A stretch of 64,000 nt of DNA, taken from Micromonospora chersina. GTDB lineage: Bacteria; Actinomycetota; Actinomycetes; Mycobacteriales; Micromonosporaceae. How positions within the stretch are numbered: the stretch's first letter is position 1; each line of letters starts with the position of its first letter. Location: the NCBI RefSeq assembly GCF_900091475.1, contig NZ_FMIB01000002.1:1550001-1614000 (forward strand), given 5' to 3'. Position numbers and translations under genes: made by a program. This document shows, one piece after another, positions 5,935 through 52,695 of the stretch. Below the pieces are notes generated by a model, which was not told where the DNA came from, did not search any database, and worked only from the letters and a program-made list of their open reading frames with translations.

Positions 5935-7413
5935 ATGGGCGAGGACGTCGGCGCGCGCACCTTCAGCCGGGAGGACCGGGCCCGCTACCGCGACAAGGTG
6001 CGGCGCTGCCTGGACGTGTTCGCCGAGATGCTGCGCGAGTCCCGCTTCGACGTGGAGCGGCCGATGACCGGGCTGGAGATCGAGCTGAACCTGGTCGACG
6101 ACGAGTCCCAGCCGGCCATGCGCAACGCGGACGTGCTGGAGGCGATCGCCGATCCGAGCTTCCAGACCGAGCTGGGCCAGTTCAACGTGGAGATCAACGT
6201 CGCGCCGCGCCGGCTCACCGGCACCGGCACGGCGCAGTTCGAGGAGCACGTCCGGGCCAGCCTGAACGCCGCCGAGGAGAAGGCCCGGACGGTCGGCGCG
6301 CACATGGTGATGATCGGCATCCTGCCGACCCTGCGCCCGGAGCACCTGACCGCCGAGACCCTGTCGGCCAACCCGCGCTACGCCCTGCTCAACGAGCAGA
6401 TCTTCGCCGCGCGCGGCGAGGACCTGCGGATCTCGATCAGCGGGGTGGAGCGGCTGGCCACCACGGCGGACACCATCACCCCCGAGGCCGCCTGCACGAG
6501 CACCCAGTTCCACCTGCAGGTCAGCCCGGCCCAGTTCGCCGACTACTGGAACGCCGCCCAGGCGATCGCCGGCGTCCAGGTCGCGCTGGGCGCCAACTCG
6601 CCGCTGCTGTTCGGCCGGGAGCTGTGGCGGGAGACGCGGGTGCCGCTGTTCCAGCAGGCCACCGACACCCGCGCCGAGGAGATCAAGGCCCAGGGGGTAC
6701 GCCCCCGGGTCTGGTTCGGGGAACGCTGGATCACCAGCGTGTTCGACCTGTTCGAGGAGAACGTGCGCTACTTCCCGGCGCTGCTGCCGGTCTGCGACCC
6801 GGAGGACCCGGCGGAGACCCTCGCGGCCGGCGGCGTACCGAAGCTCGCCGAGTTGCGGCTGCACAACGGCACCGTCTACCGGTGGAACCGCCCGGTCTAC
6901 GACGTGCTGAAGGGGCGCCCGCACCTGCGGGTGGAGAACCGGGTGCTGCCCGCCGGGCCGACCGTGCTGGACACCGTCGTCAACGGCGCCTTCTACTTCG
7001 GCCTGGTCCGCGCCCTCGCCGAGTCCGACCGGCCGCTCTGGTCGCAGATGTCGTTCAGCGCGGCCGAGGAGAACTTCACCAACTGCGCCCGGCACGGGAT
7101 CGACGCCCAGGTGTTCTGGCCCGGGCTCGGCTACCTGCCGGTGACCGAACTGGTGTTGCGCCGGTTGCTGCCGCTGGCCCACCACGGGCTGGACCGGTGG
7201 GGCCTGGACCCGGCCGAGCGGGACCGGCTGCTCGGCATCGTCGAGCAGCGCTGCCTGACCGGCCGCAACGGCGCGACCTGGCAGGTGGAGACGCTGCACC
7301 GGCTGGAGTCCGCCGACCACCTGGACCGGCCGGAGGCGCTGCGCGAGGTGGTCCGCCACTACGTCGACCTGATGCACAGCAACCGTCCGGTCCACGAGTG
7401 GCCGATTCCCTGA
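5935..7413 (+). CDS. Glutamate-cysteine ligase family (GCS2) carboxylate-amine ligase
   Basis: The 492-aa product matches the GCS2 ATP-dependent carboxylate-amine ligase fold. The N-terminal metal/ATP strand is GLEIELNLVDD, followed by ELGQFNVEINVAPR, the central CTSTQFHLQVS, and ALGANSPLLFGRELWRETR. Such enzymes join the gamma-carboxyl of glutamate or a related acid to an amine. Cysteine is the classic substrate (EgtA in ergothioneine synthesis), but no other egt gene is nearby, so the real substrate is unknown. ATG 5935 is preferred over the GTG codons at 5926 and 5929 because AGGG sits 8 bases before it. A partial stress-type promoter (GGATC-N15-GGGTA) lies at 5831-5855. Confidence 0.82.
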   Translation: MGEDVGARTFSREDRARYRDKVRRCLDVFAEMLRESRFDVERPMTGLEIELNLVDDESQPAMRNADVLEAIADPSFQTELGQFNVEINVAPRRLTGTGTAQFEEHVRASLNAAEEKARTVGAHMVMIGILPTLRPEHLTAETLSANPRYALLNEQIFAARGEDLRISISGVERLATTADTITPEAACTSTQFHLQVSPAQFADYWNAAQAIAGVQVALGANSPLLFGRELWRETRVPLFQQATDTRAEEIKAQGVRPRVWFGERWITSVFDLFEENVRYFPALLPVCDPEDPAETLAAGGVPKLAELRLHNGTVYRWNRPVYDVLKGRPHLRVENRVLPAGPTVLDTVVNGAFYFGLVRALAESDRPLWSQMSFSAAEENFTNCARHGIDAQVFWPGLGYLPVTELVLRRLLPLAHHGLDRWGLDPAERDRLLGIVEQRCLTGRNGATWQVETLHRLESADHLDRPEALREVVRHYVDLMHSNRPVHEWPIP

Positions 7414-36903: not shown

Positions 36904-38409
36904 CTATGCGTCGCCTGTGCGTTCGGGCAGCCGCACCGTGAAGACGGTCCGGCCGGGGCGGCTCGCCACCTCGACCTCGCCGTGGTGGGCCTCCACCACG
37001 GCGGCCACGATGGCCAGGCCGAGGCCGGTGCTGCCGTGGGCGCGGGAGCGGGAGCTGTCGCCGCGGGCGAACCGCTCGAAGACCTCCGGTTGCAGTTCCT
37101 CGGGGATCCCGGGGCCGTCGTCGCTGACGCTCAGCTCGACGCCGCCGGCCACCGGCGTGAGCCGGGTGGTCACCGTGGTGCCGGGCGGGGTGTGCACGCG
37201 GGCGTTGGCGAGCAGGTTCGCCAGCACCTGGTGCAGGCGGTGGGCGTCGCCGGTGACGCTCAGCGGCTCGTCGGGCAGGTCGAGCTGCCAGCGGTGCTCG
37301 GGGCCGGCCACGTGGGCGTCGCTCACCGCGTTGACCACCATGGCGGTGAGGTCGACCGGCTCGGCCGCGAGCGGGCGGCCGGAGTCGATCCGGGCGAGCA
37401 GCAGCAGGTCGTCGACGAGGCTGGTCATCCGGGTGCTCTCCGACTCCACCCGGCGCAGGGCGTGGGCCACGTCCGGCGGGACCTCGTCCCGGCCGCGCCG
37501 GGCCACCTCCGCGTAGCCGCGGATCGCGGCGAGGGGGGTACGCAGCTCGTGGCTGGCGTCGGCGACGAACTGGCGTACCCGCGTCTCGCTGGCCTGCCGG
37601 GCGGCGAGCGCGGCGGCGACGTGGCCGAGCATCCGGTTGAGCGCGCCGCCCACCTGCCCCACCTCGGTACGCGGGTCGGTGTCGGCCGCCGGCACCCGCA
37701 CCGACAGGGCCACCTCGCCCCGGTCGAGGGGCAGTTCGGTGACCCGGGCGGCGGTGGCGGCGACCCGGTTCAGCGGGCGCAGCGCGGCCCGGACGATCAG
37801 CGCGCCGAGCCCACCGGCGATGATCAGCCCGGCGGTGACCAGCCCGGCCTGGGCGACCAGCACCCACATGACCGTCTCGTTCACCGAGGAGAGCGGGATG
37901 GCGACGGCCGCCACCACGCCGTCCGAGGGCCGATGGGCCACCGCACGGAAATCACCCCGATCGCCCAGCTCGACGGTGCGGGGCTGCCCGTCCGGAGGCA
38001 CCGCGGCGAGCGCGGTGATGTCGCTGGCCGGCACCGCCTCGGCCTCCCCGGATTCGGCTCGCACCGTGGCGGTGGTGGTGCCGCAGGCCGTCCACAGGGC
38101 GATCGAGCCGGGTGGGAAGCCGCGCGGCGGCTCCGGCTGCGGTTGGTCGCAGGGGTCCGTCCGTCGCGGGTCACCGGGCGGACGCAGCCACGGCGGCATG
38201 TCACCGATGCGCCGGTCGGCCATGGTGAGCTGCTTGTCCACCTCGCCGACCAGGAAGTGGCGCAGGGCGATCGTGGTCAGGCCGCCGATGCCGACGCTGA
38301 CCAGGGCCAGCAGCGCCACCACGGAGAGCACGAGGCGGCGGCGCAGCGACCAGCCGGCCAGCCGGCGCCGCAGCCGACCGCCCCGGTCACTCCGCGGGCT
38401 TGAGGACAT
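36904..38409 (-). CDS. Sensor histidine kinase
   Basis: The 501-aa kinase has a membrane segment near 25-48 (RLVLSVVALLALVSVGIGG), an extracellular sensor of about 120 residues, a second segment near 180-205, a HAMP linker (IVRAALRPLNRVAATAARV), the HisKA H-box FVADASHELRTPLAAIRGYAEV, and an ATPase domain with N-box VLANLLANARVHTPPG, DDGPGIPEE and GSTGLGLAIV. The response regulator gene upstream overlaps its start by 23 bases, so this is its partner. The signal and the genes it controls are unknown, but glycosyltransferases follow directly. Confidence 0.94.
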   Translation of the reverse strand: MSSSPRSDRGGRLRRRLAGWSLRRRLVLSVVALLALVSVGIGGLTTIALRHFLVGEVDKQLTMADRRIGDMPPWLRPPGDPRRTDPCDQPQPEPPRGFPPGSIALWTACGTTTATVRAESGEAEAVPASDITALAAVPPDGQPRTVELGDRGDFRAVAHRPSDGVVAAVAIPLSSVNETVMWVLVAQAGLVTAGLIIAGGLGALIVRAALRPLNRVAATAARVTELPLDRGEVALSVRVPAADTDPRTEVGQVGGALNRMLGHVAAALAARQASETRVRQFVADASHELRTPLAAIRGYAEVARRGRDEVPPDVAHALRRVESESTRMTSLVDDLLLLARIDSGRPLAAEPVDLTAMVVNAVSDAHVAGPEHRWQLDLPDEPLSVTGDAHRLHQVLANLLANARVHTPPGTTVTTRLTPVAGGVELSVSDDGPGIPEELQPEVFERFARGDSSRSRAHGSTGLGLAIVAAVVEAHHGEVEVASRPGRTVFTVRLPERTGDA

Positions 38410-39142
38410 AACCCGCGCCGCGCAAGGTGTGGATCATGGGCTCGCGGCCCGCGTCGATCTTCTTGCGCAGGTACGAGATGTACAGCTCGACCACGTTGGC
38501 CTGGCCGCCGAAGTCGTAGTTCCAGACCCGGTCGAGGATCTGCGCCTTGCTGAGCACCCGGCGCGGGTTGCGCATCAGGTAGCGCAGCAGTTCGAACTCG
38601 GTGGCCGTGAGGTTGACCAGGTCGCCGCCGCGGCGTACCTCGTGGCTGTCCTCGTCGAGGCTGAGGTCGCCGACGGTGAGCACGGCCTCCTCGCGGGCGG
38701 CGACCGCGAACCCGGAGCGGCGCAGCAGGGCGCGCAGCCGGGCGATCACCTCTTCCAGGCTGAACGGCTTGGTGACGTAGTCGTCGCCGCCGACGGTGAG
38801 CCCGGCGATCCGCTCCTCCACGGCGTCCCGGGCGGTCAGGAAGAGCACCGGCACGGTGGGGGCCTGCTCGCGCAGCCGGCGCAGCACCTGGAAGCCGTCC
38901 AGGTCCGGCAGCATGACGTCGAGCACCACGGCGTCGGGCTTGAACTGCCGGGCGGCGCTGATGGCCGCCATTCCGTTGCCGGCGGTCGTCACCTGCCAGC
39001 CCTCGTAGCGCAGCGCCATCGAGAGCAGGTCGGTGAGCGTCGGCTCGTCGTCCACCACCAGCACCCGCACCGGTTCGCCGTCGGGTCGGCGCAGCTCGAT
39101 CCGGCCCTGCGCGGCCTGCCCGTTCATGACCATGACCCCCAT
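38387..39142 (-). CDS. OmpR-family response regulator of the kinase pair
   Basis: The 251-aa regulator has a receiver with VLVVDDEPTL, DAVVLDVMLPDLDG (phospho-Asp), FLTARDAV and VTKPFS, and a winged-helix domain ending NVVELYISYLRKKIDAGREP, IHTLRGAGYVLKPAE. Close starts are ATG 39142, 39133 and 39127 (MNGQAAQGRIEL); none has an excellent ribosome site, so 39127 is possible and would give 246 aa. It overlaps the kinase gene and heads the operon with the glycosyltransferases. Confidence 0.94.
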   Translation of the reverse strand: MGVMVMNGQAAQGRIELRRPDGEPVRVLVVDDEPTLTDLLSMALRYEGWQVTTAGNGMAAISAARQFKPDAVVLDVMLPDLDGFQVLRRLREQAPTVPVLFLTARDAVEERIAGLTVGGDDYVTKPFSLEEVIARLRALLRRSGFAVAAREEAVLTVGDLSLDEDSHEVRRGGDLVNLTATEFELLRYLMRNPRRVLSKAQILDRVWNYDFGGQANVVELYISYLRKKIDAGREPMIHTLRGAGYVLKPAE

Positions 39143-45816: not shown

Positions 45817-46305
45817 TCAGGCCGCGCTGCGCTCGGCGGCGCCACCGGTCGGCAGCCCCGCAGCGGCGGTCGGGGTCTCCGGCGGCACCACGTCGCCGCG
45901 TACCCCCGCGAGGACCTCGTCGACGCGGGCCTCGCGCCGGCGGCGGGCCAGCAGCGCCGCCTCGAAGTCGCGACGCGCACGGACCGCCTCGGCGTACGCC
46001 TGCTCGCGGACCTGGCGGGCCTCCTCCCGGGCGGCCTCCAGCTCGCTGCGGGCCTGGGCAAGCAGCGCGGCGGCCTCCCGCTCGGCGGCCGTCCCGGCGA
46101 CCACCTCCGCCTCCACGACGGCGGTGCGGCGGCGCAGGAAGTCGCAGAGGTGGGTCGCGTCCTCCCGGATCTGGTCCCACTCCCGGCCCGCGCCGGCGGC
46201 GCTCTCCGCGCGGGCGGCGAGCCGGACCAACCGGATTCCCAGCTCGTCCAGGCAGGAGTCCACCTGCCGCTGGTCGTAACCGGTCTCAACCACGGAGAAC
46301 CTCAT
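45817..46305 (-). CDS. DivIVA-domain-like coiled-coil protein
   Basis: The 162-aa protein begins MRFSVVETGYDQRQVDSCLDELG, typical of the short N-terminal DivIVA/Wag31 motif (G-Y-D/N-x-x-x-V-D). A coiled coil follows from about residue 60 to 140, rich in Ala, Glu and Arg (AREEARQVREQAYAEAVRARRDFEAALLA). DivIVA proteins bind curved membrane or scaffold others. This one is short and lies next to a receiver and STAS genes, so it may recruit them. ATG 46305 is supported by a GGGG stretch 9 bases upstream and by the conserved start. Confidence 0.75.
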   Translation of the reverse strand: MRFSVVETGYDQRQVDSCLDELGIRLVRLAARAESAAGAGREWDQIREDATHLCDFLRRRTAVVEAEVVAGTAAEREAAALLAQARSELEAAREEARQVREQAYAEAVRARRDFEAALLARRRREARVDEVLAGVRGDVVPPETPTAAAGLPTGGAAERSAA

Positions 46306-46425
46306 GCGTGTCGCCCCCCAGGCAGCTGGTGTCACTTCCCCACCTGACGATCCTGGGCGGCGAGCGGCCACGCCCGTGGCCGTTCCCACAAAATGTTCAG
46401 CATCCGGATGCCCGGACGAAGGTGG

Positions 46426-46872
46426 TCAGGGGTGCTTGGGAAGCACGACCACCCGGCCGAAGAACTCGTCGATCCGCCGCACCACGTCGTTGAAGTCGTC
46501 CAGGTCGATCGGCTTCGTCACGTACGCGTTGGCCTGGAGCGTGTAGCTGCCGAGGATGTCGGTGTCGGCGTTGGAGGTGGTCAGCACGACGATCGGGATG
46601 GTGCGCAGGTTCTCGTCCCGCTTCACCTCGCCGAGCACCTGACGCCCGTCCATGCGCGGCATGTTGAGGTCGAGCAGGATGACGTCCGGCCGCTGGGCCT
46701 CGGTGTGCCGGCCCTCGCGGCGCAGGAACTCCATCGCCTCCTGGCCGTCGTTGACCACGTCGATGATCTTCTCGACGTCCGAGTCCTCGAGCGCCTCCTC
46801 GATCATCAGGACGTCACCCGGGTCGTCGTCCACCACCAGGATACGAACGGGGCTCGGGGTGCCATGACCCAT
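46426..46872 (-). CDS. Stand-alone receiver protein (Rcp1-like)
   Basis: The 148-aa protein is a single receiver domain of the CheY/Rcp1 type: VRILVVDDDPGDVLMIEEAL, DVILLDLNMPRMDGRQVL (phospho-Asp), VVLTTSNADTD and YVTKPID. GDVLMIEEALED is typical of receivers that partner with phytochrome-like or hybrid histidine kinases. No kinase is next to it. It is spaced 73 bases from the STAS gene and 120 from the DivIVA-like gene, same strand. Confidence 0.9.
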   Translation of the reverse strand: MGHGTPSPVRILVVDDDPGDVLMIEEALEDSDVEKIIDVVNDGQEAMEFLRREGRHTEAQRPDVILLDLNMPRMDGRQVLGEVKRDENLRTIPIVVLTTSNADTDILGSYTLQANAYVTKPIDLDDFNDVVRRIDEFFGRVVVLPKHP

Positions 46873-46945
46873 GGGAAAACCTGCTTCGTCTCGGAGGTGG
46901 AGGCGTCGACGGCGAGGTCGACCACCGGCGGGGAAATCTATCCGA

Positions 46946-47293
46946 TCAGGAGGCGGCCGGCGTGGCCGGGTCGGCCCTGCCCGCCTCGTAGCGCAGCACC
47001 TCGTCCAGCCCGGTCATCCGGAGCACCCGGGCCACCCGCCCGGTCGCCCCGGTGATCCGCAACCAGCCGCCCGCGGCGGTCGCGAGGTTGTCGCCGCGGA
47101 CGAACGCGGCGATGCCCGTGGAGTCGCAGAAGGTCAGCTCCGTGAGGTCCAGCAGCAGCTCGCGGTGCCCGTCGGCGGCCAACCGGTCGATGGCGGCGGT
47201 GAGCTCCGGCGCGGTGCTCAGGTCGAGCTCACCCGCGAGCCGGAGGCGGGCCGGGCCGCCGTCCAGCCGGGCGTGCGTGACGGTGAACGTCAC
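46946..47293 (-). CDS. STAS-domain anti-sigma-factor antagonist
   Basis: The 115-aa protein has the STAS fold with LRLAGELDLSTAPEL and the phosphorylatable Ser in TFCDSTGIAAF. Such proteins bind and release an anti-sigma kinase (RsbW type) when dephosphorylated by a SpoIIE-type phosphatase. The phosphatase gene two places upstream fits this role. GTG 47293 is chosen for GAGGGGGG upstream. A canonical TATACT -10 lies 48 bases before it. Confidence 0.9.
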   Translation of the reverse strand: MTFTVTHARLDGGPARLRLAGELDLSTAPELTAAIDRLAADGHRELLLDLTELTFCDSTGIAAFVRGDNLATAAGGWLRITGATGRVARVLRMTGLDEVLRYEAGRADPATPAAS

Positions 47294-47340
47294 CGTGGCC
47301 CCCCTCGCTCCCACCGCAGGCCGACCCTTGCAGTTCAGCA

Positions 47341-47346
47341 AGTATA
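47341..47346 (-). promoter_or_regulatory. -10 box of the STAS promoter
   Basis: TATACT on the minus strand, 48 bases before the STAS start. Suggests a separate promoter after the B12-protein gene. Confidence 0.45.
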
Positions 47347-47371
47347 CGCACGGTTCCGGGCAGCTCGGCGG

Positions 47372-48421
47372 TCACCGTGCCGGGGCGGCCGGCAGCCCGC
47401 TGACCAGGGCACGAGCCCGGTCGAGGAAGCGCCCGGCGCGGGGAAAGTCGCGCAGCAGGTGTCCATAGTGGTCGAGGGTGAGCCCCACGGCGCCCGCCGG
47501 GACCCGGCGGCTGACCAGGATCGCCACCAGCCACTCGACGAACTCGCCGAAGAGGGTCTCGTCGTCGACGTAGAGGGCGGCGGCGAGGAAGTCGACGATG
47601 TAGCCGAGGTCGCTCACTGTCGAGTCGAGCTGCGCCGGGGTGTAGTCGCGTACCCCCGGCACCCGCTCCCGCAGGTCGGCCAGAGCGCTGTCGATCAGCT
47701 CGCCGCGACGCTTCGTGAGGCTCGCGTACTCGTCGTCGGCGAGGTGGTCGAGCCGGGCCGGCGGCACCGCGCGCAGCGCCCGCTCGTCGGCGAGCAGGTC
47801 AGCCGCGCTGGGCGCGTCCGGCGCCCAGGCCACCCCGAGCACCCGGGCCCAGCGGCCGTCGCCGCCGAAGCCGCGCCCGCCCACCACCACCGGCACGTCC
47901 GAGCGGCGGCACGCCTCGATCATCCGGTGGGCGTGCGGCAGCCGCATCGGCAGCGCGCAGGCCAGCGCCACCGCGTGCGCGTCGTAGCGGTGCAGGTAGG
48001 AGACCAGGTGCGCGGCGGGCACGCTGGCCCCGAGGAAGGTCACCTGCCAGCCGCGCAGCCGCAGCACCTCGGCCACCAGCCGGGCCGGCAGCGCGTGCCA
48101 CTCCCCGTCCATGCAGGCCACCACGATCCGGCCCCGGGTCGGGCGGGGATCGGCGTACGCGGCGACGGCGGCCACCACCCGCTCGCTGACGTGGGTGGCG
48201 GCGTGCTCCTGGGCCACGCTCCACTCGTCACGCGCCCACCGCTCCCCCACCTCGGCCTGCGCGGGGGCCACCAGGTCCAGCAGCACGCGCTCGGCCGGCA
48301 CGCCGGACTCCAGCAGCCCGACGGCCACCTCGACGGCGCCGTGCTCGTCGGCCTCCGCCAGGAACTCCAGGTAGCCGGGGAAGGCGTGAGCCGGGTCGGC
48401 CACGGTGGTCGTCGCGGTCAC
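47372..48421 (-). CDS. Cobalamin-binding protein, probable light sensor, with extra helical domain
   Basis: The 349-aa protein has a B12-binding four-helix domain (VAPAQAEVGERWARDEWSVAQEH) with W62 and E72-H73, the residues that contact cobalamin in CarH-type photoreceptors. A Rossmann domain follows with EWH (E107, H109) as the lower-ligand motif and TFLGASVPAAHL. There is no DNA-binding domain, unlike CarH/LitR. Residues about 225-345 form an uncharacterised all-helical C-terminal domain (YIVDFLAAALYVDDETLFGE). It overlaps the SpoIIE phosphatase stop by 4 bases (GTGA), so they are translationally coupled. It may report light or cobalamin status to the phosphatase. Confidence 0.85.
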   Translation of the reverse strand: MTATTTVADPAHAFPGYLEFLAEADEHGAVEVAVGLLESGVPAERVLLDLVAPAQAEVGERWARDEWSVAQEHAATHVSERVVAAVAAYADPRPTRGRIVVACMDGEWHALPARLVAEVLRLRGWQVTFLGASVPAAHLVSYLHRYDAHAVALACALPMRLPHAHRMIEACRRSDVPVVVGGRGFGGDGRWARVLGVAWAPDAPSAADLLADERALRAVPPARLDHLADDEYASLTKRRGELIDSALADLRERVPGVRDYTPAQLDSTVSDLGYIVDFLAAALYVDDETLFGEFVEWLVAILVSRRVPAGAVGLTLDHYGHLLRDFPRAGRFLDRARALVSGLPAAPAR

Positions 48422-50193
48422 GCGGTGGTCTCCCTCGGTCGGTCGGCGCCGGTCGGGCCCTGCACCGCGTGCAGGTGACGGCCCGGGCGGCCGGGGCCGG
48501 TGGCCCGCAGCGCGAGCACCGCGATGTCGTCGTGGTCGCCGTGGCCCAGCCAGTCGCAGGTCACCTGCTCGATCCGCTCGGCCAGTGCCGGGGCGGGCAT
48601 CCGGTGGCAGCCCGTCACCGCGTGGAGCAGCCGCTCGGCGCCGAACTGCTCGTCGCCGCGCCGGCCGCCCCGCGCCTCGGTCACGCCGTCGCTGTAGAGC
48701 AGGCAGGTCTCGCCCGGCGCCAGGTGCACGGTCACCTCGCCGATTCGTGGATCCGGCACCACGCCGATCAGCATGCCGCTCAGCGGCACCACCTCGACCT
48801 CGCCGGAGGCCCGCAGCACCAGCGGCGGGAGGTGGCCGCCGCCGGCCATGGTCAGGGTGAGGCTGCCGTCGCGGTGCGGGCGGACCACACCCAGCACCAT
48901 GGTGGCGAAGCGACCCTGCCCGTGCGCCTGGGTGGTCTCCAGCAGCGCGTCGTTGAGGAGCTTCAGCAGCCGTCCCGGCTGCGACTCGACCCGGTGCAGC
49001 GCGTGCAGGCACTGCCGGAGCTGGCCGGTGAACACCGCCGCCTCGACGCCCTTGCCCGAGACGTCGCCCAGGAAGAAGACCGAACCGCCGTCGACGAGCC
49101 GGTGGGAGCCGTAGAAGTCACCGCCGATCCGCAACCCGGCCTGCGCCGGCCGGTACGCGGTGCCCCACTGCACGCCGGTAGCCGCCGCCGGCTCGACGGG
49201 CAGCAGGCTGGCCTGGAGGGTGTCGGCGACCTCCGCCTGGTCGCGGTAGAGCACGGCGGTGGTCAGCGCGGCGCCGGCGCGGGCCGCGAAGGCGCGGACC
49301 AGGTCGAGGTCGGCGTCGTCGTACCAGCGGCCGGCCCGGCGGGCCACCAGCAGCACGCCGGCCGGCATCTCCCGCCCGGGCAGCGGCACCACCCGCGCGG
49401 TGGCTCCGGCCGCGTCGAGCCCCGGCAGCCAGCCGGCCTCGACGGCCTGCTCGACCAGCCAGTCCAGGGCGTGCGGCTCGGCCCCGCCGAGGCCCTCCGC
49501 GATCGCCGACGGCAGCGCCGTGGCGGCGAGCATGCCGCTGTCCACGGCGGGCGCCTCGTCGTCCGCCCGTACCGCCCGCCACCAGCGGGCCCGGCCGGAG
49601 CGCGGGGCCAGCACCAGCACGGCGGCGTCGGCCAGGGTCGGCACGGCCAGCCGGACCACCGCCGCGGCGGCCCGGTCGGGGTGCAGGGGGTTGCCGAGCT
49701 TCTCGCCGACCACGGCGAGGAACGCCGAGCGGGCCCGCTCGGCGAGCAGCGCGTCGGCCCGGCTGACGCTCTCGGTGACGTCCTCGACGTACCAGCAGCG
49801 GCGGGCCGCGGAGAGCGAAACCCGCCGCAGCCGCAGCCGACGCCCGTGATGGGCGAACTCGCCCGGGTCGGCGGCGAGCAGCGCGGGCACGCTGGCCGCG
49901 GCCAGCACCTCGCCGGCCACCACCTCGGGAACCAGCCGCTCGGCAACCGGGCTGAGGTGCCGCACCACGCCGTCGGCGTCGCAGACGATGAGGCCCTCGC
50001 GGAAGTGCTCCACCACCTCCGACCAGTCGGGGGTGGGCAGGTCGCGGTCCGGGGCCAGGGGCGGCAGGGCGGGAGCGGCGACGGACCTCGGGCGAGCCCT
50101 TCCGGCGCCCGGCCTGGAGACCCGTCCGTCGCCCGGGTCAGCACCCCTGACGTCGGCAGCAGTCACCAGATGAGCCCCACTCCTTGTCGACAC
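48418..50193 (-). CDS. PAS/GAF-domain SpoIIE (PP2C-type) serine phosphatase
   Basis: The 591-aa protein has a PAS-like region (about 60-140, EGLIVCDADGVVRHLSP), a GAF domain (about 160-310, AFLAVVGEKLGNPLHPDRAAAAVVRL), and a SpoIIE phosphatase domain (about 345-565) with GGDFYGSHRL, FFLGDVSGKGVEAAVFTG, GGGHLPPLV and YSDGVTEARG and DDIAVLAL. It should dephosphorylate STAS partners. GTG 50193 is the longest start; GTG 50166, 13 bases after a GGAG, is an alternative. It is coupled to the B12-binding protein gene and divergent from two more STAS genes. Confidence 0.94.
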   Translation of the reverse strand: MSTRSGAHLVTAADVRGADPGDGRVSRPGAGRARPRSVAAPALPPLAPDRDLPTPDWSEVVEHFREGLIVCDADGVVRHLSPVAERLVPEVVAGEVLAAASVPALLAADPGEFAHHGRRLRLRRVSLSAARRCWYVEDVTESVSRADALLAERARSAFLAVVGEKLGNPLHPDRAAAAVVRLAVPTLADAAVLVLAPRSGRARWWRAVRADDEAPAVDSGMLAATALPSAIAEGLGGAEPHALDWLVEQAVEAGWLPGLDAAGATARVVPLPGREMPAGVLLVARRAGRWYDDADLDLVRAFAARAGAALTTAVLYRDQAEVADTLQASLLPVEPAAATGVQWGTAYRPAQAGLRIGGDFYGSHRLVDGGSVFFLGDVSGKGVEAAVFTGQLRQCLHALHRVESQPGRLLKLLNDALLETTQAHGQGRFATMVLGVVRPHRDGSLTLTMAGGGHLPPLVLRASGEVEVVPLSGMLIGVVPDPRIGEVTVHLAPGETCLLYSDGVTEARGGRRGDEQFGAERLLHAVTGCHRMPAPALAERIEQVTCDWLGHGDHDDIAVLALRATGPGRPGRHLHAVQGPTGADRPRETTA

Positions 50194-50328
50194 CCCGCGG
50201 CGCGCCCGGAACGGCGCGTATGGTCAGATCTCTCCACCCCACCCTACGCCGGTGTGCCGGGACCGCCACCCCACGGCCTGCGCCCCGGCCTGCGGACGCG
50301 CCATCCGGCGAGGCCGTGCCGGGGTTGT

Positions 50329-50334
50329 TACGAT
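50329..50334 (+). promoter_or_regulatory. -10 box upstream of a STAS gene
   Basis: TACGAT, about 43 bases before the STAS start at 50377. Confidence 0.4.
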
Positions 50335-50376
50335 CCCTGACGACCGGCCCCCGACCGGGAGCCGCGGAAAGGTGTG

Positions 50377-50763
50377 ATGGTGGCACCCCGACGGAACACG
50401 CCCGAGGCGACGCCGCTGACCCTCTCCGTGGACCGGTCCGACCCCGTGGCCCCGGTCGTGAAGGTCGGCGGTGACCTGGCCTTCACCACGGCCACCCCGC
50501 TGCGCGTCGAGGTCGACCGGCTGCTGGCCGAGGGCCCCGCGACGCTCGTGCTGGACTTCGGCGACCTGCTCTTCATCGACAGCACCGGCCTGTCGGTGAT
50601 CGTGCACGCCTGGCGGGAGGGTCAGCAGCGGGGCACCGCGGTCCTGCTCCGGGAGCCGCCCCGCTTCCTCACCACGATCCTCGACATGACGGGGGTCACC
50701 GGCCTGCTGTCCCGGCCACGGCCGGAGGACCGGCCGGCGACGGATTCGTCCGCGTTCGCGTGA
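50377..50763 (+). CDS. STAS-domain protein (anti-sigma antagonist type)
   Basis: The 128-aa protein has the STAS motif LVLDFGDLLFIDSTGLSVIVHA with the conserved Ser in DSTG, and KVGGDLAFTTATPLRVEV as first strand-helix. It is probably a partner-switching antagonist dephosphorylated by the neighbouring SpoIIE enzyme. GTG 50374, ATG 50377 and GTG 50380 are possible starts; GGAAAGG upstream suits 50377-50380. It is divergent from the SpoIIE gene, with 183 bases between. Confidence 0.9.
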   Translation: MVAPRRNTPEATPLTLSVDRSDPVAPVVKVGGDLAFTTATPLRVEVDRLLAEGPATLVLDFGDLLFIDSTGLSVIVHAWREGQQRGTAVLLREPPRFLTTILDMTGVTGLLSRPRPEDRPATDSSAFA

Positions 50764-50809
50764 GCACCCCGGGGGTTTCCCGATCATCCCGACCTGGGAA
50801 CATGGCGAC

Positions 50810-51157
50810 ATGCCCTCTCAGCTGTTGACGATCGAGGTGGACCGGCTCGCCGCCGGACGTGCTCGGCTCCGGCTGACCGGCGAGCTCGACTTCGACACCG
50901 CGCCCGACCTCGTGGCCGCCGCCGCCGAGCTGCGCCGCGACGGCTGCCAGGAGCTGCTGCTCGACTTCGCCGGGGTGACGCTGTGCGACTCCTCGGGCCT
51001 CAGCGCGCTGGTGGTCGTCCACCGGGCCGGCGCCGGCGCGGTGCGGCTGGACTCCGTGAACCCGCCGGTACGCCAACTGCTGGACCGCACCGGGCTGACC
51101 GAGCTGCTGGCCGTCCCGCCGTCCACGGCGACCGGGGACGCCCGCCAGGTCGGCTGA
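50810..51157 (+). CDS. STAS-domain protein (anti-sigma antagonist type)
   Basis: The 115-aa protein is a STAS domain with LRLTGELDFDTAPDLV and LLLDFAGVTLCDSSGLSALV; the phospho-acceptor Ser is the first of DSSG. It closely resembles the STAS protein at 46.9 kb, suggesting two related antagonists controlled by one phosphatase. The 46-base gap to the preceding STAS gene suggests cotranscription. A strong terminator follows. Confidence 0.9.
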   Translation: MPSQLLTIEVDRLAAGRARLRLTGELDFDTAPDLVAAAAELRRDGCQELLLDFAGVTLCDSSGLSALVVVHRAGAGAVRLDSVNPPVRQLLDRTGLTELLAVPPSTATGDARQVG

Positions 51158-51723: not shown

Positions 51724-52695
51724 ATGCGCAAGCAGATGGAGGGCGACAACCAGCGCCGCCGGGCCCTGGCCCGGGACGCCCGGGAACGCGGTCTGCGGCC
51801 CAGCCAGACCGGCGCCAGCCTGAGCGCGTCCAAGCAGATCACCTCGCTGGACCAGCGCGAACGGTCCGGCCCGCCGCCGGCCGGCCGGCACAAGCCGGAC
51901 ACCACGCGCGGCGGTCCCGCGCCGCCGCCCGCGGCCGTGGCGGAGCGCCCGCGCCCGCTGCCCGACGAGCGGCCGGCCCGGGTGACCACGATGGGCTACC
52001 GGGCTCTCGTCGACGACGTGAGCCGGCGGGCCGGGGTGGACTTCTCCACCGCCAAGGTGGCGGCCGAGGCGACAGTGCTCGCGCTGGCCCGGGCGCTCGA
52101 CGAGGCCGAGCGGGAACGGCTGCTCGAGGCCGTGCCGGTGAAGCTGCACGACGTGGTGCCGGTGGACGGCATCGAGCGGCGGCAGGACCTGCCCGGCTTC
52201 CTGGCCGAGGTGGGCCGGCGCAGCCGCCTCACCCCGGAGCAGGCCCGCTACCAGGCGCAGGCCACCCTCGCCGCGCTGGCCGACGCGGACGGCGACCTCG
52301 TCGAGTCGCTGCGCGTACCGGACGGGTTGCGGGACCTGCTCGCGCCGCCGGTGGCCGGCGGCGGCCTGGTGGGTGCGACGTCCGCCACCGCTCCGCTGGA
52401 CGAGCAGGAACTGCGCGACGCGCTCGCCCAGCTGCCGTACTGGTCCAGTGACCGGCAGTCCCTGGTGCGCACCATCGAGCTGCCGGCCGGCAACCTGGAC
52501 CGGGTGCTCGACCGGCTCGACCAGCTCCGGGGCGAGACCGGGCGCGGCCCGCAGATCGGGCGGCCCGACCAGGACAGTGCCGTGCTCACCGTGCGCACCC
52601 AGCAGGTCGACGGGGTGACGGCGGTGGACGTGGACCTGGCCCGGCGGGTGGACGACGCCATCGACGAGGCCGGCGCCGGGATGGCCGCCGGCTGA
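51724..52695 (+). CDS. DUF2267 protein with a C-terminal PCD-like domain
   Basis: The 323-aa protein starts with a charged, Lys/Arg-rich tail, then has a DUF2267 domain (about 90-190) with MGYRALVDDVSRRAGVDF, DEAERERLLEAVPVKLHDVV. The C-terminus (about 230-320) resembles pterin-4a-carbinolamine dehydratase: LPYWSSDRQSLVRTIELP, and AVLTVRTQQVDGVTAVDVDLA with a final helix. The HHP active-site motif is missing (GRGPQIGRPD in its place), so it is likely a non-catalytic PCD-fold. The ATG is preceded by ACGAGGTGCGACG (AGG at 7-9 bases). Part of a stress-promoter neighbourhood. Confidence 0.78.
   Translation: MRKQMEGDNQRRRALARDARERGLRPSQTGASLSASKQITSLDQRERSGPPPAGRHKPDTTRGGPAPPPAAVAERPRPLPDERPARVTTMGYRALVDDVSRRAGVDFSTAKVAAEATVLALARALDEAERERLLEAVPVKLHDVVPVDGIERRQDLPGFLAEVGRRSRLTPEQARYQAQATLAALADADGDLVESLRVPDGLRDLLAPPVAGGGLVGATSATAPLDEQELRDALAQLPYWSSDRQSLVRTIELPAGNLDRVLDRLDQLRGETGRGPQIGRPDQDSAVLTVRTQQVDGVTAVDVDLARRVDDAIDEAGAGMAAG

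Follow-up and report, generated by a model that had tools for sequence, protein, structure and literature searches.

The locus described here can be compared with the photocobilins, with the CarH/LitR regulators and with the partner-controlled PPM phosphatases of Bacillus subtilis. Among the photocobilins, SasPcob of Saccharothrix syringae (8J2W/8J2X) is a standalone protein for which the cited parts of PMC10979010 establish no cognate target, and AbDPcob (8J2Y) carries a diguanylate cyclase as its fusion partner. When this fusion was illuminated, its apparent turnover went up more than 10-fold, and free-standing photocobilins altered cyclase activity in trans (PMC10979010). The function of standalone photocobilins is termed 'less clear' in the same source, and STAS, SpoIIE and PP2C phosphatases are listed there as potential SasPcob interactors on the basis of genome neighbourhood networks and STRING, with Micromonospora yangpuensis and a Streptomyces among the four species chosen (Zhang et al. 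2024, PMC10979010). In the RsbQ-RsbP and RsbT-RsbU systems of B. subtilis, a PPM phosphatase is switched on by a separate partner, either RsbT or the hydrolase RsbQ, which acts by way of a sensory domain and a helical linker (PMC3183031, PMC12143880). Here we describe a photocobilin gene that overlaps the gene of a SpoIIE-type PPM phosphatase in a 64,000-nucleotide stretch of the Micromonospora chersina genome (6.68 Mb; contig NZ_FMIB01000002.1, positions 1,550,001 to 1,614,000), referred to below as the window. That SpoIIE and STAS proteins are potential photocobilin interactors is already known; what is new is a firmer candidate partner, pointed to by a conserved overlapping gene pair. We found no experimentally demonstrated photocobilin-SpoIIE pair in the open-access literature, a search whose coverage leaves out most subscription papers and preprints.

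The two genes open a run of five on the minus strand, in the order SpoIIE phosphatase, B12 protein, STAS protein, lone receiver and coiled-coil protein, and the last bases of the SpoIIE gene overlap the photocobilin start in the sequence GTGA at 48418-48421, as the earlier note on this DNA had reported. A scan of the cluster for promoters and terminators found none and is uninformative for so high-GC an organism. The features of the pair, in window coordinates, are as follows.

47372..48421, minus strand: photocobilin gene, 349 amino acids, with a CarH-like B12 domain and a C-terminal photoglobin domain (phmmer, AlphaFold 2 (AF2), Foldseek)
48152..48394, minus strand: four-helix bundle of the B12 domain, residues 10-90, holding W62 and E72-H73 (AF2 helices; PF02607, 50.1 bits; residue mapping)
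47789..48133, minus strand: Rossmann B12 domain, residues 97-211, holding E107-x-H109 (PF02310, 64.2 bits against a cut-off of 32.1; maps to SasPcob His108)
47396..47749, minus strand: predicted photoglobin (bilin-binding) domain, residues ~225-342, holding D271 and W297 (alignment with 8j2w and 8j2y; AF2 helices)
48418..50193, minus strand: SpoIIE-type PPM phosphatase gene, 591 amino acids (Pfam SpoIIE; GTGA overlap with the photocobilin start)
48493..49191, minus strand: PPM catalytic domain, residues ~335-567 (Pfam, AF2)
49318..49695, minus strand: GAF-like domain, residues ~167-292, followed by a long helix, 293-329 (GAF_3, 20 bits, below cut-off; AF2 secondary structure)
49774..50028, minus strand: putative PAS-like N-terminal domain, residues ~56-140, followed by a helix, 140-166 (AF2 secondary structure only)

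Searched against solved structures with phmmer, the B12 protein matched SasPcob (8j2w_A) at an E value of 5.5e-104 over residues 19-339 and AbPcob (8j2y) at 1.8e-48, and its alignment with both structures reaches into the C-terminal part, whereas its match to CarH (5c8d, 8.3e-10) is confined to the B12 part. It shares 183 of 320 aligned residues (57%) with SasPcob, which it also resembles in its near-full-length homology, its adenosylcobalamin (AdoCbl) and bilin-contact residues and its standalone form; identity to AbDPcob in a structural alignment is 36%, and there the bilin-contact Asp is His. An AF2 model built on a 25-row alignment has a mean predicted local distance difference test (pLDDT) score of 91.1, and Foldseek superposed it on 8j2w with template-modelling (TM) scores of 0.86/0.91 and a root-mean-square deviation of 2.4. 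Pfam assigned B12-binding_2 and B12-binding domains and found no MerR-type DNA-binding domain, and the NCBIfam CarH model scored 59.8 bits against a cut-off of 400. Although the protein has the AdoCbl domain of CarH/LitR with its W, EH and E/DxH motifs, it thus differs from them in lacking the MerR domain and in carrying an additional globin domain, and a CarH-like transcription factor is ruled out. The earlier note had correctly described a B12 protein with W62, E72-H73 and an ExH motif and without a DNA-binding domain, but its picture of a CarH-like sensor reduced to the B12 part missed the globin-like domain at residues ~225-342; by homology and predicted fold, the protein is a full photocobilin, with an AdoCbl domain and a putative bilin-binding photoglobin domain. 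Elsewhere in the same genome, a protein combining MerR and B12 domains (L006:847-1872) has, by eye, His in place of the adenosyl-pocket Trp of CarH, and for this reason may be light-blind.

Functional residues map one to one. W61, E71-H72, H108 and H137 of SasPcob correspond to W62, E72-H73, H109 and H138, and the bilin contacts Asp270 and Trp296 correspond to D271 and W297; the roles of these residues in the adenosyl pocket, as cobalt ligand and in bilin contact are taken from the cited parts of PMC10979010. The CarH-like motifs W-x(9-10)-EH and E/DxH are represented by W62, E72-H73 and E107-x-H109, and H109 is the predicted lower cobalt ligand. Equivalents of W61, E71, H72 and H108 are present in all 79 alignment rows, the SasPcob row included. 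We predict that the photocobilin binds AdoCbl and biliverdin and releases the adenosyl group when illuminated and, as D271 and W297 are present in the bilin-binding domain, that it responds to red light besides green. AdoCbl itself can be expected in the host, since the genome encodes an adenosyltransferase (PF02572, 6.0e-56) and a methylmalonyl-CoA mutase. Among other genera, 64 of 72 genomes with a photocobilin have a heme oxygenase (PF01126), and a diverged heme-oxygenase-like protein is encoded in the host at G000:C2:5822251-5822865 (L195, L260; PF01126, 28.8 bits), with homologues in 8 of 61 Micromonospora genomes, the host included.

The phosphatase has a PPM fold in which the metal-type Asp residues are present. 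The earlier note had assigned it a PAS-GAF-SpoIIE architecture, of which the SpoIIE part stands; the GAF assignment is weak, GAF_3 scoring 20 bits where 27 are required, and the Pfam scan gave no match for PAS. In the AF2 monomer, helix 293-329 lies between the sensory part and the phosphatase (pLDDT 68 for the block, 55 over 311-330), and because the alignment rows behind the model mostly cover residues 330-567, it barely tests the PAS and GAF folds. The host genome contains 16 SpoIIE matches. Past the phosphatase domain, residues 572-577 (48463-48480) form a short RHLHAV-like tail that is near-invariant in the aligned photocobilin-linked SpoIIE proteins.

We scored the pair as linked where a SpoIIE-type domain on the same strand ended at most 400 nucleotides from the photocobilin match, in 67 loci from named genomes, 29 loci chosen in other Micromonosporaceae genera and 11 second-copy or outlying loci, sets that overlap in part (L069 and L115 have identical linked phosphatase domains). 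A search for the pair across Micromonosporaceae had been suggested earlier, with an unlinked pair counting against a functional connection; SpoIIE lay directly 5' of the photocobilin in all 67 named loci, in 28 of the 29 loci of other genera, the miss (L128) having just 153 nucleotides of contig upstream, and in 10 of the 11 remaining loci, the miss being the divergent L144; the outcome that would have counted against the connection thus did not arise. The photocobilin start is in frame and shares bases with the stop codon of SpoIIE (NTGA) in 59 of the 67 named loci. Two of the named loci, L074 and L075, have a fragmented or partial photocobilin match. A phylum-wide sample of 396 genomes gave 34 photocobilin matches outside genomes G000 (the host) and G003, with SpoIIE 5' in 10, namely all ten matches from the same class (five each in groups f2 and f4), and in none of the 24 from outside it; ten of these 24 cover the B12 part only and hence are not photocobilins, and two of the remainder, L235 and L249, have 634 and 1099 nucleotides of contig upstream. 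As L228, a protein of f2, has a 100% match in Mycolicibacterium rutilum and matches Streptomyces proteins from 73% identity, we infer that f2 is a Mycobacterium group and f4 a Streptomyces group; in L228, the SpoIIE and photocobilin gene calls overlap by four bases.

The two genes also occur together. With thresholds of E 1e-20 for the photocobilin and 1e-60 for SpoIIE, 100 of 200 Micromonosporaceae genomes had both, 95 neither, four the photocobilin only and one SpoIIE only, so that presence agrees in 195; a profile search does place a SpoIIE next to the photocobilin in three of the photocobilin-only genomes (G055, G081, G111), and in the fourth (G044) the locus sits at a contig edge. When 81 phosphatase domains were placed in a tree, all 56 linked ones came together in one group of 57 rows (support 94), whose sole unlinked member is the second-locus SpoIIE of the host genome (L151). 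The 24 rows outside this group comprised 13 of the 14 other SpoIIE proteins of the host and 11 neighbouring SpoIIE proteins. Given the strength of the 8j2w match and the conservation of the pair in relatives, chance similarity or adjacency is excluded.

Collectively, these data point to a conserved operon in which a new photocobilin has a firm candidate partner in SpoIIE. RsbQ, encoded next to its phosphatase RsbP and activating it, is a direct precedent for a neighbouring partner gene (PMC3183031), and a coiled-coil linker and dimerisation have been proposed as the means by which partner proteins and sensory domains regulate PPM phosphatases (Baral et al., PMC12143880). Together with the action of photocobilins in trans, these precedents mean that the photocobilin is, by analogy, best read as the partner protein of the linked SpoIIE, with a photoreceptor in the place of RsbQ or RsbT. 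We put at roughly 0.6 the probability that the overlapping pair is a two-protein light input in which the photocobilin controls SpoIIE, which in turn dephosphorylates STAS. The photocobilin would bind AdoCbl and, in the host's lineage, probably a bilin, and in the dark would form an AdoCbl-bound head-to-tail dimer. Green light acting on the cobalamin, or red light on the bilin-bound form, would drive off the adenosyl group and take the dimer apart, as happens in SasPcob. The altered photocobilin would then act on SpoIIE by direct contact, most likely through the PAS-like and GAF-like sensory region and its helices, and so change the dimeric state of the phosphatase domains. SpoIIE would remove phosphate from a STAS antagonist, STAS 1 being the first choice, and the dephosphorylated STAS protein would capture an anti-sigma kinase whose gene lies outside the cluster. 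By analogy with AbDPcob, we predict that light activates the phosphatase.

The putative substrates and the other genes around the pair are these.

46946..47341, minus strand: STAS protein 1, anti-sigma-factor antagonist type, 3' of the photocobilin; site CDSTG (TIGR00377, 66.9 bits against 53.45)
46426..46872, minus strand: lone receiver of the Rcp1/RcpA type (phmmer, 1k68 RcpA 6.2e-36; 1i3c Rcp1 2.1e-33)
45817..46389, minus strand: coiled-coil protein, 190 amino acids, last of the co-directional run (sub-threshold ATP-synt_B match only)
50374..50763, plus strand: STAS protein 2, divergent; site IDSTG (PF01740, 50.5 bits)
50810..51157, plus strand: STAS protein 3, divergent; site CDSSG (PF13466, 46.9 bits)

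Pfam bore out the three STAS proteins and the lone receiver of the earlier note; the coiled coil also stands, and the label 'DivIVA-like' attached to it is a judgement on the N-terminal sequence rather than a family match, Pfam giving only the sub-threshold match listed above. All three STAS proteins of the window have a phosphorylatable Ser in a D-S-x-G motif, and STAS 1 passes the TIGR00377 cut-off, with STAS 2 and 3 below it at 49.1 and 45.6 bits. Across the loci read, 177 of 189 STAS stretches have D-[S/T]-[STAG]-G, and six of the remaining 12, including most f2/f4 downstream copies, have D-S-M-G or D-S-V-G. In 57 of the 67 named loci, the next gene 3' of the photocobilin encodes a STAS protein, as it does in 7 of the 10 loci from f2 and f4; divergent STAS genes occur in 61 of the 67, and 48 of the 67 have a homologue of the coiled-coil protein. 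A linked bacteriophytochrome for the Rcp1-like receiver was ruled out, a PHY search of the host genome giving no match despite the phytochrome-associated type of this receiver.

RsbW-type HATPase_c_2 domains were found near the photocobilin-SpoIIE pair in four relatives. In L073 (Paractinoplanes atraurantiacus), STAS, HATPase, SpoIIE and photocobilin genes are consecutive (HATPase_c_2, 50.1 bits); in L230 and L232, the domain is encoded on the same strand past the STAS genes (36.4 and 50.8 bits), and in L226 it is convergent to the pair (43 bits). A STAS-SpoIIE fusion suggested by a 698-amino-acid open reading frame (ORF) in L073 (5881-7977) is probably apparent only, as GC content by codon position and the HATPase_c_2 match in another frame (6431-6715) indicate that its middle is coded in a different frame; the gene order is unaffected by this re-reading. 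None of the loci read showed a fusion of photocobilin and SpoIIE, in a search that was not exhaustive. At E 0.001, PF13581 matches the host genome 49 times, with 32 matches flagged as over the cut-off, and general domain scans, which included no sigma-factor profile, found no sigma factor among the cluster proteins.

Several findings weigh against the photocobilin as the light input of SpoIIE. The cluster itself has no anti-sigma kinase by the HATPase_c_2 profile, whose sole match in the window is at 36955-37257; the earlier note had said as much, and the release of a sigma factor that it proposed stays hypothetical, no kinase being linked here, though such domains lie near the pair in the four relatives. 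In other genera, STAS is 3' of the photocobilin in only 5 of 29 loci and divergent in 10 of 29. PF01126 was found in just 8 of 32 photocobilin-bearing Micromonospora, four of these matches being weak, which makes the bilin source doubtful. Furthermore, SpoIIE occurs without a photocobilin in 21 loci: 20 second-locus copies and the first locus of G131, where the photocobilin is gone and SpoIIE, STAS and the receiver are kept.

Of the 33 SpoIIE-bearing Micromonospora in the 200-genome sample, 29 have the second (B) locus, with a photocobilin in nine and none in 20. The host's own second locus (L262, G000:C2:5507000-5519000) is among those with SpoIIE and no photocobilin and is orthologous to the photocobilin-bearing B loci; in a comparison with one of these, L138, 1222 nucleotides correspond to 54 nucleotides in the host. 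Among the 21 photocobilin-less SpoIIE proteins, 19 keep all four metal-type Asp residues, and L265 and L280, both second-locus copies, have Asn at 502. On the tree, the presence of the photocobilin must have changed at least four times; since the pair is also found among the copies of other genera, we take these changes to be losses more probably than gains. That SpoIIE stays where the photocobilin is missing speaks for a modular arrangement, and against a phosphatase that strictly depends on its neighbour; the photocobilin behaves like a removable input.

We also asked where SpoIIE evolved faster after photocobilin loss, as a map of the contact surface, and this gave a hint only. Changes in lost versus kept lineages were 50/13 in the GAF-like domain and 42/36 in the phosphatase domain (linker plus GAF versus phosphatase, p 0.002, with regions picked after seeing the data and two of the four pairs sharing a comparator). 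Distances to an outgroup rose after loss in GAF (1.20-fold), in the phosphatase domain (1.11-fold) and in the first linker (1.97-fold). The acceleration of GAF depends on the outgroup, with p values of 0.001, 0.08 and 0.12 over all four pairs and, with other outgroups, of up to 0.29 once one pair is dropped, and control pairs without loss were themselves uneven for GAF in two of four cases (11/3 in L135/L136, and 4/0). In G131, the whole SpoIIE protein has sped up (end branch 0.45 against a median of 0.079), and the change is not specific to GAF relative to the nearest sister.

These findings leave room for other explanations, of which the one that survives best, though we consider it unlikely, is that the photocobilin mainly targets STAS, the receiver of Rcp1 type or some protein encoded away from the cluster, and that the pair is simply co-transcribed among the parts of a stress-signalling node. 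STAS and the receiver are indeed likewise conserved (58 and 63 of the 67 named loci), and the 21 loci in which SpoIIE persists alone fit this view. Across genera, however, it is SpoIIE that stays beside the photocobilin and STAS that does not, the start overlap is conserved, and the SpoIIE partner is lineage specific. Less probable still is that the photocobilin senses the AdoCbl level or cofactor state rather than light and reports supply to the phosphatase. The loss of the bilin-contact Asp in a second photocobilin lineage, described below, and the rarity of heme oxygenase in Micromonospora would suit a cofactor sensor, but the adenosyl-pocket Trp and Glu-His of the light sensors are invariant in 79 of 79 rows, and D271 and W297 are invariant in first-lineage Micromonospora. 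The earlier note had allowed for a light- or cobalamin-responsive phosphatase acting on STAS proteins; the first remains the best inference, and a cobalamin response without light is less likely because W62 and E72-H73 are adenosyl-pocket residues of photoreceptors. With 16 SpoIIE matches in the genome, such a neighbour is no surprise, and the photocobilin is absent from 20 of 29 B loci; even so, that a B12-domain gene simply inherited its place beside one of many SpoIIE genes is very improbable when linkage spans the Micromonosporaceae, Mycobacterium/Mycolicibacterium and Streptomyces groups with functional residues kept.

The photocobilins fall into two lineages that differ at the bilin contact. 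In the first, 90 of 93 Micromonospora rows (some genomes counted twice) keep both D271 and W297, and the three others have gaps there, despite the rarity of a recognisable heme oxygenase in this genus. In the second, the position of D271 is occupied by G, A, S or V in the nine second-locus copies of Micromonospora and by A, L, T or E in related copies from other genera and f2, and the adenosyl and cobalt residues are unchanged. A broader proposal, which we hold tentatively and at somewhat less than even odds, is that SpoIIE is the dedicated partner of the standalone photocobilins of this class in an actinomycete-wide, swappable light-input cassette with two spectral classes and a droppable sensor. 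With similar reservation, we propose that a single genome can hold both a bilin-competent (Asp270) and a bilin-blind class.

A partner gene that is fixed beside the photocobilin and overlaps it translationally in three actinomycete groups provides a named target for photocobilins and a simple two-protein assay, and the loci that naturally lack a photocobilin allow the phosphatase to be compared in the presence and absence of its sensor. If the pair works as proposed, red/green light sensing would sit atop sigma-factor partner switching in soil actinomycetes, and the phosphatase would be a light-controlled one. Were the cassette proposal also true, two light colours would set STAS phosphorylation and, through it, stress or developmental expression in Micromonospora, Streptomyces and environmental mycobacteria.

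Two further observations concern the surroundings of the cluster. The minus-strand HATPase match at 36955-37257 and a receiver match at 38732-39070 probably represent a two-component pair unrelated to the photocobilin cluster. On the other side, 51724-52695 encodes a DUF2267 domain with a C-terminal pterin-4a-carbinolamine dehydratase-like domain, and a homologue lies on the matching side in 56 of 67 relatives.

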